30,755 bases of DNA from a virus: positions 1-30,755 of the IMG/VR virus record IMGVR_UViG_3300031840_000246; one strand, written 5' to 3'. The position numbers were made by a program, and so were the translations under genes. The notes under the pieces were generated by a model that did not search any database, had not been told where the DNA came from, and was given only the letters and a program-made list of their open reading frames with translations. Positions 8,538 to 21,011 of this stretch are shown piece by piece (the first letter of the stretch is position 1; the number at the start of each line of letters is the position of its first letter).

Positions 8538-9533
8538 TTATATTATTAGTTCGCCTTTGTTGTCATACCAATCAGGATTGACATAAGACCATTGATGCCG
8601 ACAATTATATCCACCTCGAACTATTAAAGGGTCGCCAGATTTTTTACCTGACCAACTTCTACTAGCCCAGATTTGTTTGACTTCATCAATTGTGAAAAGT
8701 CCACTTTCCCTTTTGTTATATACTCCATTTATCATGTTTCTGCAAATCTCTCTTGTTGTAGGTATTACATCTCCATAATATTTTACATAAGTTAAACCAG
8801 CATCATTTGCTTTGTTAAAGTTTAATGTTGCGTCAAAGTCTCTTAATGAGTCGTTTAATATCTGACCAGCATATCTTTTCATATTCTCTCCAGCACGATC
8901 TGTTGCAAACTTAGATTGTAATGTTTGGATAGCTTTATTTACTTGGTCTTTTTTAGATGCTTTGAACTTATTATCATTTACAAAATCAATTAGTTTTTGT
9001 GCTTCTCTATCATCTGAACTTGCATAAATACCATTGATTGATTGTCTTAGTTCTTTTTCAAGATCAGCAAATGTATTCCCAACTAAGGTATTTTGATAGA
9101 CCTTTTCAGATAGTTCTCTTGTAAATCTATTTGATACATCTTTGAATTGAGTAAAATATTGTTGTTTTAAATTCTGTACTAATGCTAAATCGCCTTTAGT
9201 TAGTTCTTGGAACTCTACAGGAATATTACCAATTCTTTTAAATGCTCGTTCAATTCGTTTAGCTTGTTTATTAAATCCCTCTCTAACCACTTGATCTGCA
9301 AAGGGTAAATAGTTTTGATCTAATATAGATTTAATCTTTGGTCTTATTGCAATAGCTGATTGTAATTGAATTAATTTACCATCAGTAGTTCTTGGTAAAT
9401 CTGTATCTGCAATATTAACGATTTCTCGTTCTATTCTATCAAGTGTTTGGGTAAGATTTTTATAGTATTCTATCTCGGCTTGTTCTATGCCTTTGATTCG
9501 GTATAAAGTTAATTCTTCTATCTTATCAGCCAT
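8538..9533 (-). CDS. Phage head morphogenesis (minor capsid, SPP1 gp7 / Mu gpF-like) protein
   Basis: A 331-residue mostly helical protein between portal and scaffold genes. The C-terminal part has TTREICRNMINGVYNKRESG and then GGYNCRHQWSYVN. This follows the conserved pattern of Mu gpF / SPP1 gp7 head morphogenesis proteins, in which Arg, Cys, Gly-G and N-C-R-H residues recur near the end. Such proteins bind the portal and are present in a few copies per capsid, possibly helping DNA ejection. The preceding + strand gene interrupts its spacing from the portal gene. The Shine-Dalgarno sequence is weak, so its expression may depend on a long read-through mRNA. Confidence 0.85.
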   Translation of the reverse strand: MADKIEELTLYRIKGIEQAEIEYYKNLTQTLDRIEREIVNIADTDLPRTTDGKLIQLQSAIAIRPKIKSILDQNYLPFADQVVREGFNKQAKRIERAFKRIGNIPVEFQELTKGDLALVQNLKQQYFTQFKDVSNRFTRELSEKVYQNTLVGNTFADLEKELRQSINGIYASSDDREAQKLIDFVNDNKFKASKKDQVNKAIQTLQSKFATDRAGENMKRYAGQILNDSLRDFDATLNFNKANDAGLTYVKYYGDVIPTTREICRNMINGVYNKRESGLFTIDEVKQIWASRSWSGKKSGDPLIVRGGYNCRHQWSYVNPDWYDNKGELII

Positions 9534-9586
9534 TTGTTCTAATTTTGTTCTACCAAAAACATAGTAATTGCTAGGTTTTAATTTAT

Positions 9587-9615
9587 TTGACCTTTATATC
9601 AATTTTTACTAAGAT
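9587..9615 (+). promoter_or_regulatory. Sigma70-type promoter of the + strand insert gene
   Basis: TTGACC (9587-9592, five of six to consensus) is separated by exactly 17 bases from TAAGAT (9610-9615, four of six). Transcription would begin about 25 bases before the ATG, giving a short leader with AAAAAAAAGGAGAGAG. No - strand gene occupies this gap, which supports an independent promoter. Confidence 0.7.
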
Positions 9616-9640
9616 TTATATATAAAAAAAAGGAGAGAGC

Positions 9641-9979
9641 ATGAAACTAATACAAGACACAAATTATCAAAAACCACTTCTTCAAATTGAAGATGAAATG
9701 AGTATTCACTACGATACAAATATAGAAAATCAAATTCTTAATGCTGTATCTGAATGTGTTATTTGTGGTAAAGGCATTAAAGCTACATCTAAAAATTATT
9801 CTATAGTTGCTGGTTTAGGAAATTATCATCAATTTATTCACAAAGACGAATGGGATTATGCTGAGTCAAAAGAAAATACTGATGGTGGTTTTATGGGTAC
9901 TTGGGATATTGGTAGTGAATGTTATAAAAAATTAAAAGATTTTCCAAACATTAAAGATTACATTAAAAAAAATTTCTAA
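9641..9979 (+). CDS. Moron gene: putative zinc-binding small protein of unknown function
   Basis: A 112-residue protein encoded opposite to all flanking head genes. It has its own promoter, a strong Shine-Dalgarno sequence (AGGAGAGAG) and an intrinsic terminator, the typical layout of a moron. Residues 44-49 have CVICGK and a third Cys lies in GSECYKKL (about residue 94). With a His this could make a zinc-ribbon-like site, reminiscent of the small 'CxxCGR...G..C..KL' phage zinc-ribbon proteins. It begins like a soluble cytosolic protein, with no signal peptide or membrane segment. Function is unknown; host takeover, anti-defence or exclusion are possible for morons but not shown here. Confidence 0.82.
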   Translation: MKLIQDTNYQKPLLQIEDEMSIHYDTNIENQILNAVSECVICGKGIKATSKNYSIVAGLGNYHQFIHKDEWDYAESKENTDGGFMGTWDIGSECYKKLKDFPNIKDYIKKNF

Positions 9980-10000
9980 ATATTAATTAACCAACTAATG

Positions 10001-10030
10001 AAAGAGGCGATCTATATGGTCGCCTTTTTT
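10001..10030 (+). terminator. Intrinsic terminator of the + strand moron
   Basis: AGGCGA (10005-10010) pairs with TCGCCT (10020-10025), extendable to 10 bp by A-T and one G-U pair, with a 9-base loop and a run of six T at 10025-10030. On the minus strand there is no T run, so leftward transcription from portal to head genes should pass. The terminator overlaps the portal stop codon at 10029-10031. Confidence 0.88.
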
Positions 10031-11450
10031 ATATCTGTTCTTCCTCTACTTCTTCTTCTATTTGAGATGCTTGAACTTCCTCTTGTGTGAATTGACCTAG
10101 TTCTGCTTGTTGGTCTATTTCTTCATTTGCTTGTGCAATCTTTTCATCATCTTCAATAACTGATTTAATAATTTCTTTATCAACTTCTTTATTGAAAGTT
10201 GGAGATTGGATATTCATAGCTTTAGCCATTTGATAGAATTGTAAGTCAGATGCGTAATCTCTAATGTTGAAACTATCAGGATAATTAATAACACCATCAA
10301 ATACAGTATCTTGAAACTCTGCGTATAGTTTAAATAATTGTTCTTCAGCTAATTCTAAGTTGTCAGCTTTCTCACTTAGTCTAGCATTAAGTAATTCAAA
10401 TTCAGTTTGTAGTGCAATACCAGATGAGATTTGTTTCTGTGTAGTTCTTATTGCATCTGTGTGTGCTATTCTGTTTATAGCTTGAACTTTGTTATTAATT
10501 GAATCCATAATAGATTGTAAGTTCTGACCAGATGGTTGTAATAAATATGGTTTTAAGTTTGGCTCAATTTCTTCTGGCATTTCAATAATAGCACCAGCAC
10601 CAGCACTTGCATTTACACTTGGAGTTTTAACTAATGATGGGTGGTTAGATAATCTGATTAGTTGTTCCATTTCAGAGTATTCATTGTAAATAGCTTTTTG
10701 TAGATCAGCAATATCTGTTAAGTCCGATAGACCAATTCCTCTTTTGTGAGATTTAGAATTGTATAAAATAACTGCTGGTATTTTGCCTAACGGGTTTTCG
10801 GCAGTATCTATGATTCTTGGATTGTCTCCAAATCTTTCAACATATACTATCTCTATCTTTTCAGGTGTCCAAATTTTAAAATAAGTTCCACCCATTTTAT
10901 CTACTTCTTCTCTAATTTTTAAATAGTCCAAAGCATATTTTCCGTTAGTTTGTCTTGTGTAATTCCAATCAAATACATTTTCAGGGGTTACGATTGATAA
11001 GTATGGTCTTATATCTTGTTCTAATTCTTCTGCTCTAGTTCTAGTTTGAATTGGTGGCTTATCTAAAATTAAAAATACATGACCATAAATTGATGAATAG
11101 TTTTGAGCCTGTTTCATTACAGTATTAAAATTGTTTCCGTCTAAGTCAGCATCTCTTAAAAATCTTTCTAAAGTAGGTTCATTTTCTAGTTCGCCAAAAT
11201 CTCTACTAGCTTTTACTCTGAATAAGTATGATGAATAAATCTCTACAATGTTTTTACAATGGTTATCTAATGGAGTGTTGTTAAGTCTTTGATGAAATTC
11301 GTTATCTAGTTCTAAATTATATCTGTTTAAATATTGACCTACTTGGTAATCATGTCCACCATTAAAAGAACGGATATAGAACTCCCAATGAGCATAGTTT
11401 TGTTCGTAATCTTTATGAGTGTCTAAAATTTCGTCTCGTGAATATGCCAT
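10029..11450 (-). CDS. Portal protein (SPP1 gp6-like type)
   Basis: A 473-residue protein right after the large terminase gene, as in most tailed phages. The N-terminus has the portal pattern YIRSFNGGHDYQVGQYLNRY followed by LDNHCKNIVEIYSSYLF. A stem/crown-like helical region follows later (IMDSINNKVQAINRIAHTDAI, then ISSGIALQTEFELLNARLSEKADNL in segments at about 320-370). Twelve copies would make the ring for DNA entry and exit and tail joining. The C-terminal 50 residues are highly acidic and Gln-rich (EEEVEEEQI at the end). It is separated by one base from the terminase stop. The moron terminator overlaps its stop. Confidence 0.88.
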   Translation of the reverse strand: MAYSRDEILDTHKDYEQNYAHWEFYIRSFNGGHDYQVGQYLNRYNLELDNEFHQRLNNTPLDNHCKNIVEIYSSYLFRVKASRDFGELENEPTLERFLRDADLDGNNFNTVMKQAQNYSSIYGHVFLILDKPPIQTRTRAEELEQDIRPYLSIVTPENVFDWNYTRQTNGKYALDYLKIREEVDKMGGTYFKIWTPEKIEIVYVERFGDNPRIIDTAENPLGKIPAVILYNSKSHKRGIGLSDLTDIADLQKAIYNEYSEMEQLIRLSNHPSLVKTPSVNASAGAGAIIEMPEEIEPNLKPYLLQPSGQNLQSIMDSINNKVQAINRIAHTDAIRTTQKQISSGIALQTEFELLNARLSEKADNLELAEEQLFKLYAEFQDTVFDGVINYPDSFNIRDYASDLQFYQMAKAMNIQSPTFNKEVDKEIIKSVIEDDEKIAQANEEIDQQAELGQFTQEEVQASQIEEEVEEEQI

Positions 11451-16415: not shown

Positions 16416-16540
16416 TTTTTAAAACGATATTTTTTAACAGCTTTTTGAACAGATTTATTTACATTGATTTTTTTCGGTCTTTTTTTACCAATAATTTTCT
16501 TGGTATATAATTCCGAGATCATAGCAGATGTAGTTATCAT
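16412..16540 (-). CDS. 42-residue basic hypothetical protein
   Basis: A short frame MITTSAMISELYTKKIIGKK followed by a Lys/Arg-rich C-terminus ending KKYRFKK. It overlaps both neighbours as ATGA. No family recognised; it may bind nucleic acid because of its charge. Confidence 0.55.
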   Translation of the reverse strand: MITTSAMISELYTKKIIGKKRPKKINVNKSVQKAVKKYRFKK

Positions 16541-18107: not shown

Positions 18108-18139
18108 GTGCTGGGTCAGGAGAGAATCTGACCCAACAC
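18108..18139 (-). promoter_or_regulatory. Leader hairpin of the leftward block
   Basis: TGGGTCAG and CTGACCCA form a perfect 8-bp stem, extended by a mismatch and GTG/CAC. The minus-strand loop is ATTCTCTC, complementary to the phage Shine-Dalgarno type GAGAGAAT. The hairpin ends about 20 bases before the first ATG. A second smaller hairpin (18169-18187 region) on the same strand has a GCAA tetraloop. Attenuation, anti-termination or protein binding are possible. Confidence 0.65.
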
Positions 18140-18296: not shown

Positions 18297-18350
18297 AAAA
18301 GCTAGGTTTTATGCGATAAATAAAGTTATTGCATTACAACCTTATTCGTG
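18279..18350. promoter_or_regulatory. Three related operator-like sites
   Basis: ATGCGAATAAATA (18279-18291) and ATGCGATAAATA (18311-18322) start 32 bases apart, about three helical turns. An inverted relative, CACGAATAAG read on the minus strand, lies at 18341-18350. The first and third sit in the spacers of the two candidate promoters. They would be natural binding sites for the helix-turn-helix protein encoded at 19747-20127. Confidence 0.5.
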
Positions 18351-18357: not shown

Positions 18358-18389
18358 GTGGTATGTTTAACAAAAAAAAAGGAGAGAAC

Positions 18390-18951: not shown

Positions 18952-19242
18952 ATGAGAATACCAACTAATTCTACTTTCACTAAAGAAATATCAAAACAAT
19001 TTAAAAGAATATTCCATAAGGATATGACTTTAGGTGGATTACAGGATTTACAGGACGAAGTTAATTTAATTAACCCTGTAGATAGTTACTTGGAAAATCA
19101 AGTGACTCAAATAAGGAAAGCTAATGCAACCAAAACAAATGTTCAAGATGCAAGAGCAGTTAGATCGAAAGAAACAGATGGAAAGAAATTTGTTGAGACG
19201 ACTGTTCAAAGTGAAAGAACAAAAGAAAGATTTGGAGTTTAA
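18952..19242 (+). CDS. Hypothetical early protein
   Basis: A 96-residue polar protein starting MRIPTNSTFTKEISKQFKRI, with GGLQDLQDEVNLINPVDSYL and a Lys/Glu/Thr-rich, probably flexible C-terminus. AGGAGTACAATAA precedes the ATG. No family recognised. The last third overlaps another frame (19124-19279) that could also be a gene. Confidence 0.62.
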   Translation: MRIPTNSTFTKEISKQFKRIFHKDMTLGGLQDLQDEVNLINPVDSYLENQVTQIRKANATKTNVQDARAVRSKETDGKKFVETTVQSERTKERFGV

Positions 19243-19279
19243 ACTTCATCATTTGAAGTATCATCAACCAATTCTTTAA
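19124..19279 (+). CDS. Possible out-of-frame nested small gene
   Basis: A 51-residue frame, MQPKQMFKMQEQLDRKKQME and so on, almost entirely helical and rich in Lys, Arg, Gln and Leu. It starts inside the previous gene with AAGGAAAG at a good distance from its ATG and ends 37 bases beyond it, in the gap before the lipoprotein gene. The Shine-Dalgarno sequence and the way it fills the gap favour coding; biased composition from the overlapping frame is the alternative. Confidence 0.4.
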   Translation: MQPKQMFKMQEQLDRKKQMERNLLRRLFKVKEQKKDLEFKLHHLKYHQPIL

Positions 19280-19297
19280 ACGAGAGAGACAGAAGAT

Positions 19298-19576
19298 ATG
19301 AAAAAAACAATACTTACCCTAGCGATCTCTTGCACTCTATTATCTGCGTGTAGTTATAAACCTATAATAGATACTGCTGGAAGATCAGGAACATTCAATG
19401 AAGATAAAGCTAAAGAAATTACAAACGATATTCAACATTGTAAATACTTGGCTAAAGAAAATACTAATTTTATTTCAAACATTACTTATTGGACACTTAG
19501 TCCAACAATGGACACAAAGTATGAGTCTATTATGAGAAAATGTTTAGACAAGCGAGGTCATAGTGTCCTTAACTAA
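19298..19576 (+). CDS. Predicted lipoprotein
   Basis: A 92-residue protein with a bacterial lipoprotein signal: MKKTILTLAISCTLLSAC, lipobox LSAC, lipidated Cys18 and Ser19 after it, which favours outer-membrane sorting. The mature part is polar with a Cys pair (QHCKYLAKE and MRKCLDKRG). Marine phage genomes often have similar small lipoproteins of unknown role. In the early block it could block a receptor or a secondary infection, as known phage lipoproteins do, but this is inference. The end overlaps the next gene by 14 bases. Confidence 0.78.
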   Translation: MKKTILTLAISCTLLSACSYKPIIDTAGRSGTFNEDKAKEITNDIQHCKYLAKENTNFISNITYWTLSPTMDTKYESIMRKCLDKRGHSVLN

Positions 19577-19763
19577 GAAAAAAATTTTAGCATATAAATG
19601 TGCTAGATGCTTTAGAGAAGATTCTTTAAAACTTGCGTGGTTTGTAGGCTCTAATTCAATGTATAGCGATAGCTTACTTTGTAATCCATGCTTTAAAGAT
19701 CAATTTAATAAACTAACAATAACAGAAAAAAAGGAGTGGTCGTTTTATGAGAATAAAGACTAA
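19563..19763 (+). CDS. Small zinc-ribbon protein
   Basis: A 66-residue protein starting at GTG (MSLTKKKILAYK) with GAGG about seven bases upstream. CARC (residues 13-16) and CNPC (40-43) form a Cx2C...Cx2C zinc-ribbon pair, with a hydrophobic aromatic middle (LAWFVGSNSMYSD). Small zinc-ribbon proteins in phages often bind host RNA polymerase or nucleic acid; no specific partner can be named. It overlaps both neighbours. Confidence 0.68.
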   Translation: MSLTKKKILAYKCARCFREDSLKLAWFVGSNSMYSDSLLCNPCFKDQFNKLTITEKKEWSFYENKD

Positions 19764-20127
19764 TACATCAATAGAAGAAATTAACCAAAGTATATCTAAC
19801 CTAATTGCTCAATGGGGAGTTACACCAGAAGATAACGAGATTATCTTTCATAAGATAGTAGGTTTGCAGATTAAAAAAATAAGGTTTATGCGTGGAAAAA
19901 CTTTGACTAGATTAGGTAATGCACTTGGAGTTACATTTCAACAAATTCAAAAATATGAAGCTGGTAAGAACTCAACTCCACATTTTAAACTAAAAAAAAT
20001 CTGCGAATATCTATCGGTATCAATAGACTACTTTACGAAACCAATAGATGATGCTAACTTAGAATTAACTAAAAGGGGGAAATTAAATAATGTCTATCAC
20101 TTTAACAACCGACATGTCGCTAGATAA
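19747..20127 (+). CDS. Cro/CI-family (XRE) helix-turn-helix regulator
   Basis: A 126-residue protein. Residues 38-97 are an XRE-type HTH: GLQIKKIRFMRGKTLTRLGN, then ALGVTFQQIQKYEAGKNSTP, followed by LKKICEYLSVSIDYF. FQQIQKYEAG is the hallmark recognition helix. The N-terminal 35 residues and polar C-terminus are not a protease-cleavable CI tail, so this resembles a short Cro-type or host-type regulator. AAGGAG lies about 11 bases before the ATG. It likely acts on the operator-like sites in the 18.1-18.4 kb control region. With no integrase visible, it need not imply lysogeny. Confidence 0.85.
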   Translation: MRIKTNTSIEEINQSISNLIAQWGVTPEDNEIIFHKIVGLQIKKIRFMRGKTLTRLGNALGVTFQQIQKYEAGKNSTPHFKLKKICEYLSVSIDYFTKPIDDANLELTKRGKLNNVYHFNNRHVAR

Positions 20128-20254
20128 AAGAATAGCTGAAATAGAAAAAGAAGTTAAAAATAATAAATATGCTTATGAGTATTATATTGATGAATATACT
20201 TCATTAATGGAAGCTAAAAATAAAAAGGAGAGAAATGACAATAATAACTACTGA
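20090..20254 (+). CDS. Small helical hypothetical protein
   Basis: A 54-residue frame: MSITLTTDMSLDKRIAEIEK, then a Lys/Tyr-rich helix and an Asn-rich tail (RNDNNNY). A strong AAAAGGGGGAAA lies about eight bases upstream of the ATG. It starts inside the regulator gene's end and overlaps the next gene's start by 20 bases. Function unknown. Confidence 0.66.
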   Translation: MSITLTTDMSLDKRIAEIEKEVKNNKYAYEYYIDEYTSLMEAKNKKERNDNNNY

Positions 20255-21011
20255 ACACGGACACCAAATAGAGTTTAACGAAGAAAAGCATGTCTATATT
20301 CATAACAACGAATATGTAGTTGGTATGAGTACTTTGCTTGGAAAACTTGCTAGTCCACAATTAGAAAATTGGAAAATTAGCAATATGGTAAATGCTATTA
20401 AAAAAGAAATGGAACGACAAGAAATTCCATTAGATAAAATAGAATCTATTGTTTTAAATGCTAAGACCAATGCAAAGAAACAAGGAGATAATATTTTAAA
20501 TATAGGCTCTATGGTTCATAAATATTGTGAGATGTGGCTTAAAGGAGAAAAATTTACTGACCCAAGCGACCCTGTAGTTAAAGGGTGCTTTGATAAGTTT
20601 AAAAAGTTTTGGACAAAGCATAAACTTAAATTGGTAGAGTCCGAAAAAATTTTATATCACGAAAAAGGTGTATGTGGAACTTTAGACATAGTTGCTGAAG
20701 ATGGAGAAAAAAATCTTTGGCTAATTGATATAAAAACAAGCAAAGGAATTTTCTTAAACATGGTACACCAACTTCACGGGTATCGTTGGCTTTTTGAGTG
20801 CCAAACAGGTAAGAAAATAAATAAGATGTATGTAGTCCGACTGCCTAAAGATGGTGCAGATTTCGAGGCTAGACATATCTTATATAAAAAGGAACACTTA
20901 AAAGCATTTCTTGGATTATTAAGTTGTCATAAATCCGAGTTATTGTTCAATGAGTCAGTACGAAAATACAATCAACTAAAAAAAGGAAAAACAAATGTAT
21001 CAAAAAAATAG
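20235..21011 (+). CDS. PD-(D/E)XK nuclease (RecB/Cas4/exonuclease type)
   Basis: A 258-residue protein. Candidate active-site residues: H95 in IGSMVHKYCEMW, D151 in CGTLDIVAED, D165 and K167 in LWLIDIKTSKG, then Q179 and Y183 in HQLHGYRW. This is the RecB/AddB-like motif order (H, D, D-x-K, Q-Y). Such phage nucleases process double-strand ends for recombination or replication. It lacks the four Cys of Cas4-type iron-sulphur members. The adjacent SSB-tail protein overlaps its end, suggesting the two act together in a Red-like end-processing pair. AAAAAGGAGAGAA precedes the ATG. Confidence 0.88.
   Translation: MTIITTEHGHQIEFNEEKHVYIHNNEYVVGMSTLLGKLASPQLENWKISNMVNAIKKEMERQEIPLDKIESIVLNAKTNAKKQGDNILNIGSMVHKYCEMWLKGEKFTDPSDPVVKGCFDKFKKFWTKHKLKLVESEKILYHEKGVCGTLDIVAEDGEKNLWLIDIKTSKGIFLNMVHQLHGYRWLFECQTGKKINKMYVVRLPKDGADFEARHILYKKEHLKAFLGLLSCHKSELLFNESVRKYNQLKKGKTNVSKK

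Follow-up and report, generated by a model that had tools for sequence, protein, structure and literature searches.

The gene of 112 codons that lies antisense between the portal and head-morphogenesis genes of a Pelagibacter phage is probably what an exchangeable expression cassette carries as its payload at present, at a fixed portal/head-gene docking site of this phage group. When related sequences are compared, the borders of the site prove to be shared, some sites are empty, unlike payloads occur between flanks that are nearly identical, and payloads have kin among the genes with which the early operon begins. The window, i.e. the whole stretch of DNA analysed here (30,755 nt, IMG/VR record IMGVR_UViG_3300031840_000246), comes from a member of the HTVC026P/111P/112P/202P group of Pelagibacter phages, and its portal is 74% identical to the portals of HTVC026P, HTVC111P, HTVC202P and HTVC112P. 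Profile searches recognised portal, terminase, capsid, scaffold, tail and exonuclease genes. The structural genes are located on the - strand, while the + strand carries, at ~18.4-22.1 kb, a block with an HTH regulator and the exonuclease; the labels "late" and "early" are inferred from this gene content. The slot holding the payload gene measures 495 nt, and it and its neighbours contain the following features:

8538-9533, - strand: head-morphogenesis (gpF-like) gene, a homologue of HTVC112P gp30 that follows the slot on the late strand
9534-9586, + strand: head-gene-side border and upstream leader, with the late-strand sequence AGAACAAAATTAGAACAA at its head-gene end
9571-9580, + strand: CTAGGTTTTA element, 5' of the slot promoter
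9587-9615, + strand: promoter A, with -35 TTGACC (9587-9592), a 17-nt spacer and -10 TAAGAT (9610-9615)
9631-9639, + strand: ribosome site AGGAGAGAG, 5' of the payload ATG
9641-9979, + strand: payload gene (open reading frame), 112 aa, ATG start, antisense to the late genes
9998-10032, + strand: intrinsic terminator, whose T-tract overlaps the portal stop codon (10029-10031)
10029-11450, - strand: portal (phrog_145, E 5.7e-61), upstream neighbour of the slot on the late strand

The name "gpF-like" was given to the head gene from its position by a preceding sequence-only reading, and the profile search returned no confident match for it. This reading had also proposed a comparison of the portal/gpF junction in related phages, which indeed shows that the gene is not universal. 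Among 104 distinct complete junctions, assembled from portal-, promoter-, terminator- and payload-anchored loci plus isolates and biased towards occupied sites, 42 are empty, and antisense genes belonging to 28 families fill the other 62. They derive from 144 loci with both flanks, from which 40 duplicates were dropped (3 further partial loci were set aside), and the occupied ones include the window itself (L091) and L001, identical to it except at 7 of 1096 bases. In a sample not chosen for occupancy, obtained by a portal search of IMG/VR (best 80 of 310 relatives, whole junction in 71 of the 80), 40 of the 60 distinct junctions are empty and 20 are occupied. Empty junctions are tight, with 3 nt (38/42) or 4 nt (4/42) between the portal stop and the head-gene ATG. 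Isolates display both states: HTVC111P (gp32) and HTVC202P (gp29) have a different antisense gene at the junction, while it is empty in HTVC026P and HTVC112P. The closest empty relative among the best 80 of 310 portal loci, L012, matches the window at 99% in the portal and 98% in the head protein and has a gap of 3 nt, so that the gene is absent from a close relative at an otherwise tight junction, as in a moron.

In HTVC026P (L215, 11402-13228) the head gene has a C-terminal extension with an HEFGHH metalloprotease-like motif, which we take to resemble exchangeable MuF-type tails. In L019, L047, L048, L055, L056 and L069, ~1.1-1.4 kb separate the end of head-gene similarity from the scaffold gene, a stretch that may be another variable region.

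BLASTP (E 1e-3, at least 40 aligned residues) grouped the 62 payloads into the 28 families mentioned above. The slot thus carries at least 28 apparently interchangeable accessory gene families, mostly behind a shared promoter and before a shared terminator. The longest slot ORF is antisense to the late genes in 61 of the 62 occupied junctions; in the exception, L145, a late-strand ORF of 97 aa exceeds the two antisense ORFs (84 and 64 aa), but the payload was read as antisense since the antisense ORF is longest in the family mates L151 and L152. Two-gene payloads were seen in L077 and L145. When one payload per family was scanned (28 in total), Pfam gave one clear match, DUF7694 (DWNN at E 0.0055 was left uncounted), all PHROGs matches were to families without function, and PADLOC returned 0 matches.

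The sigma70 promoter with a 17-base spacer claimed by the sequence-only reading is present as placed. As a single sequence its match is not above chance, with 7 promoter-like sites per 1.8 kb compared with 10.4 ± 2.8 in shuffled sequences. Nevertheless, it is rescued by a core common to 18 families, as the block TTTATTTGA..TTTATATCAA..TTT..TA...T is invariant or nearly so in 18 leaders taken one per unrelated payload family. In the loci searched, all 47 distinct occurrences of the promoter-A pattern are at this slot (43 placed at the head gene by tblastn, 4 by eye into a head-gene start at the contig end). The 62 occupied slots show two main leader types, A (43 slots, 18 families) and B (13 slots, 8 families), which have no payload family in common, and 6 other leaders; accordingly, promoter A is absent from 19 slots, 13 of them with leader type B. 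The type B pattern is also confined to this slot (15/15 distinct occurrences).

The ribosome site was likewise found at the position given for it. The AGGAGAGA leader also precedes the first early gene at 18380. Among window ORFs of at least 60 aa, GGAGAG lies within 20 nt of the start at the payload and at 16537 (-), 17592 (-), 20235 (+) and 21804 (+), and at no recognised structural gene. The early region contains two further features:

18302-18311, + strand: other copy of the CTAGGTTTTA element, in the early-operon promoter region
18952-21011, + strand: early operon core with the landmark genes, HTH regulator (19747-20127) and exonuclease (20235-21011)

The CTAGGTTTTA element is present twice in the window, at 9571 by the slot promoter and at 18302 in the early promoter region, and exonuclease loci contain 12 distinct occurrences of it, 9 of which fall within the early promoter region. 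Since it is exact in just 5 of the 18 type-A leaders (counted by eye), it is suggestive only. The divergent early region of the window also contains a hairpin (18108-18139) with 12-nt arms of 92% complementarity (GTGCTGGGTCAG / CTGACCCAACAC). At the other edge of the leader, the border end AGAACAAAATTAGAACAA resembles, as judged by eye, a second copy of the portal 3' end. In L145, L151, L152, L175 and L181, a copy of the portal 3' end (GAACAGATATA) stands before the head gene, as if duplicated on insertion.

The terminator folds with -20.5 kcal/mol (z -7.4) on the + strand, where the T-tract follows, and with -8.4 kcal/mol on the - strand. This agrees with the strand asymmetry and the overlap with the portal stop codon noted before, and the terminator is predicted to act mainly on the + (cargo) strand and weakly on the late strand. 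A GGCGA-type hairpin occurs in 50 of the 62 occupied slots and is missing in 12, among them L185 with another hairpin. In 48 of the 50, at least 7 of the 8 bases that follow the hairpin on the cargo strand are T, compared with 3-7 on the late strand; the hairpins of L002 and L199 look bidirectional. Because the terminator pattern is not slot-specific, lying away from the slot in 26 of 77 distinct contexts, it was never used as the sole slot marker. The off-slot cases (L139, L141-L144, L150 and others) are mostly one repeated context on other contigs, away from the portal. On comparative evidence, then, the gene appears to have its own promoter and terminator. With its own ribosome site and the strand-asymmetric terminator, it fits the self-contained accessory insert opposite the late genes that had been proposed.

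A search with the 62 payloads against 2.64 Mb, which also took in portal loci and four whole genomes, located relatives outside the slot at 22 distinct places (8 families). An early-operon landmark lies within 3 kb at 17 of the 22, although early positions are over-represented here because two source scans were anchored on early genes. At 15 of these 17 places (7 families) the relative is directly upstream of the landmark on the same strand, and at two (L209, L361) it is on the opposite strand, 1.3-1.9 kb away; the remaining 5 of the 22 have no landmark within 3 kb. In L207/L208, counting ORFs of at least 60 aa, the early operon opens with a relative of the window's own payload, and HTVC026P gp07 is 82% identical to the L119 payload. 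Since relatives of several payloads stand at the early-operon start, the slot has the look of a place where early genes acting on the host are docked. For the payload, the best reading is that of an early gene maintained in antisense orientation amid the late genes.

This kinship bears on the alternative of a classical lysogeny moron, i.e. a gene expressed from the prophage to the benefit of the lysogen through superinfection exclusion or host fitness. Such a gene would also bring its own promoter and terminator and be absent from near relatives. However, the payload kin sit in the early operon beside an exonuclease, and a search for tyrosine integrases that was positive in 14/14 control genomes found none in the record of 30,755 bases, which may be incomplete. 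We consider a lysogeny moron unlikely.

The state of the slot changes often. A portal tree was built for 93 junctions, with 11 of the 104 left out for short portal sequence. It shows 24 occupancy changes (mean of ~31 for shuffled labels), at least 18 of them forced by well supported branches, and 47 payload-state changes. Near-identical flanks can enclose different contents. The empty L066 and the family 8 carrier L076 agree at 1380 of 1390 portal positions; L003, whose portal is split in two pieces in the contig, was removed from what had been a trio. L038 and L050 (portal 1377/1390, leader 94/108) have unrelated payloads, as do L107 and L147 (portal 980/1001, leader 118/126, 3' end 89/93). 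Metagenome contigs may be chimeric; isolates nonetheless show both occupied and empty states. In L107/L147 and L038/L050, the pattern fits payload exchange through the shared borders. Between the window and L012, portal and head gene agree at 92-100% per 50-nt step, with one exception at the head-gene start (74% over its first 50 nt); the last two portal codons also differ. This divergence reaches into the first ~14 head-gene codons, which is what homologous exchange would leave.

The same stretch counts against a self-mobile element, such as a homing endonuclease or an integron-type site-specific cassette, which would account for the scattered presence at a conserved site and for the part of the right border that resembles a repeat of the portal end. 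Moreover, Pfam found no endonuclease, transposase or recombinase at E 0.01 in the 28 payloads (one per family), and the tyrosine integrase search of the record was negative. This explanation is very unlikely.

The CxxC plus Cys pattern pointed out by the sequence-only reading is upheld, since C39, C42 and C94 are invariant in 13/13 relatives in the family alignment (A2). H67 is present in 12/13, with Asn in L211. The C39/C42/H67/C94 set is zinc-site-like, suggesting a zinc site in the 112-aa protein. The payload dN/dS is 0.20 against L003 and 0.24 against L004, at dS of 0.46 and 0.45, which points to purifying selection in the near clade. Two other comparisons were discarded: L031 and L093 as saturated, and L002 (0.46 at dS 0.06) for too few changes. 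Among annotated phages there were weak matches alone (best E 0.2; none with L205 as query), and 53 pattern matches to the payload in species genomes gave 0 confirmed, i.e. no relative of the protein was found in these two collections outside such phage contigs. Neither Pfam nor PHROGs assigned the protein or any of its relatives to a family with significance (best E 0.017), and solved structures gave no match, or E 0.44 and worse. Two AlphaFold2 models were poor (pLDDT 44.5 and 53.8) and the Foldseek search gave no match (best E 2.2), so that neither was relied on; HNH names in the Foldseek output are no evidence.

The coding constraint weighs against the idea that the RNA itself is functional, as an antisense RNA against the portal-head junction with an incidental ORF. 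A transcript is indeed predicted opposite the late mRNA, and the sequence-only reading had seen antisense potential in it. Inferred from the -10 element and the terminator, this transcript (~9622-10030) reaches about the last portal codon and none of the head gene, and being inside the slot, it would pair with an untranslated slot segment of the late mRNA. The antisense potential is therefore weak. With 28 unrelated sequences serving at the same place and hardly any contact with the flanking coding regions, a functional RNA is highly improbable. An old core gene with lineage losses would explain why the borders are conserved across the group, but with 28 non-homologous families at one place and an empty slot at 40 of the 60 distinct junctions from the portal search (best 80 of 310 portal loci, unselected for occupancy), its likelihood is close to negligible.

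We propose that the cassette consists of a shared leader of two main types, with a host-type sigma70 promoter and the AGGAGAGA ribosome site, a variable gene, and usually a shared terminator, which would stop cargo-strand transcription at the portal stop codon. Host RNA polymerase would transcribe the cassette at or soon after DNA entry. The antisense placement may keep the payload out of the late polycistron, so that its production would come early, before late transcription runs over it. Payloads would be swapped through homologous recombination within the borders they share and within the neighbouring genes, possibly aided by the phage exonuclease. With less certainty, the products, including the zinc-site-like protein, may act on the host in takeover or counter-defence, which would explain the fast payload turnover. 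Early kinship, small size and fast turnover suggest such a role for the window's payload. Tentatively, and with the balance tipped slightly against it, the slot might be a standard socket in the late operon for early weapons against host defences, with a common early promoter, exchange faster than the flanks diverge, and the early-operon start as gene pool. Possibly, the cassette frame is old and the payload changes within it. To our knowledge, the defences of this host clade are hardly characterised; should the payloads turn out to work in counter-defence, the slot would amount to an inventory of such genes for this clade. With the borders shared, genes of this kind can be harvested from viromes using just the promoter and terminator, while the kinship with early genes yields a testable prediction of when the payloads act.

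Regarding known systems, we found no published description of the slot at title level in the largely open-access pelagiphage, hotspot and moron literature, and the accessible portions of the literature on these isolates contain nothing about it. According to the available part of one report, P2-like phages and P4-like satellites possess variable-gene hotspots holding antiviral systems (PMC9122126). The slot shares with these hotspots the variable gene content in related phages, but its 28 payloads (one per family) include 0 PADLOC matches.

The moron reading holds in so far as the gene is a self-contained accessory insert; rather than a one-off insertion, we find a standing slot with shared borders and an exchangeable, early-related payload. 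Lambdoid morons, as reportedly described by Hendrix and colleagues, are extra genes with their own promoter and terminator between genes that adjoin in relatives. The gene studied here has the same arrangement, but differs in its standing slot, the 28 interchangeable families, the early-operon kinship and the lack of any lysogeny sign in the tyrosine integrase search of the record.

In T4-type phages, a composite promoter and stem-loop motif (PeSL) occurs many times in one genome, and shuffling through it is said to have been reported by Arbiol in 2010 and Comeau in 2014. According to two other papers, promoter-early stem-loop borders accompany accessory genes shuffled between related phages (PMC4503421, PMC3950731) and the motif reaches a high density per genome (PMC4503421). 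The slot likewise has a putative early host-type promoter and a stem-loop as shared borders of accessory genes. In contrast to the many PeSL copies, the window has one promoter and one terminator copy (at most 3 mismatches), and these bracket the gene at one fixed site, antisense inside a structural operon of small Pelagibacter phages that are not T4-like. The slot is thus a new variant of the moron/PeSL kind, and the kinship of its payloads with early-operon genes is new here.
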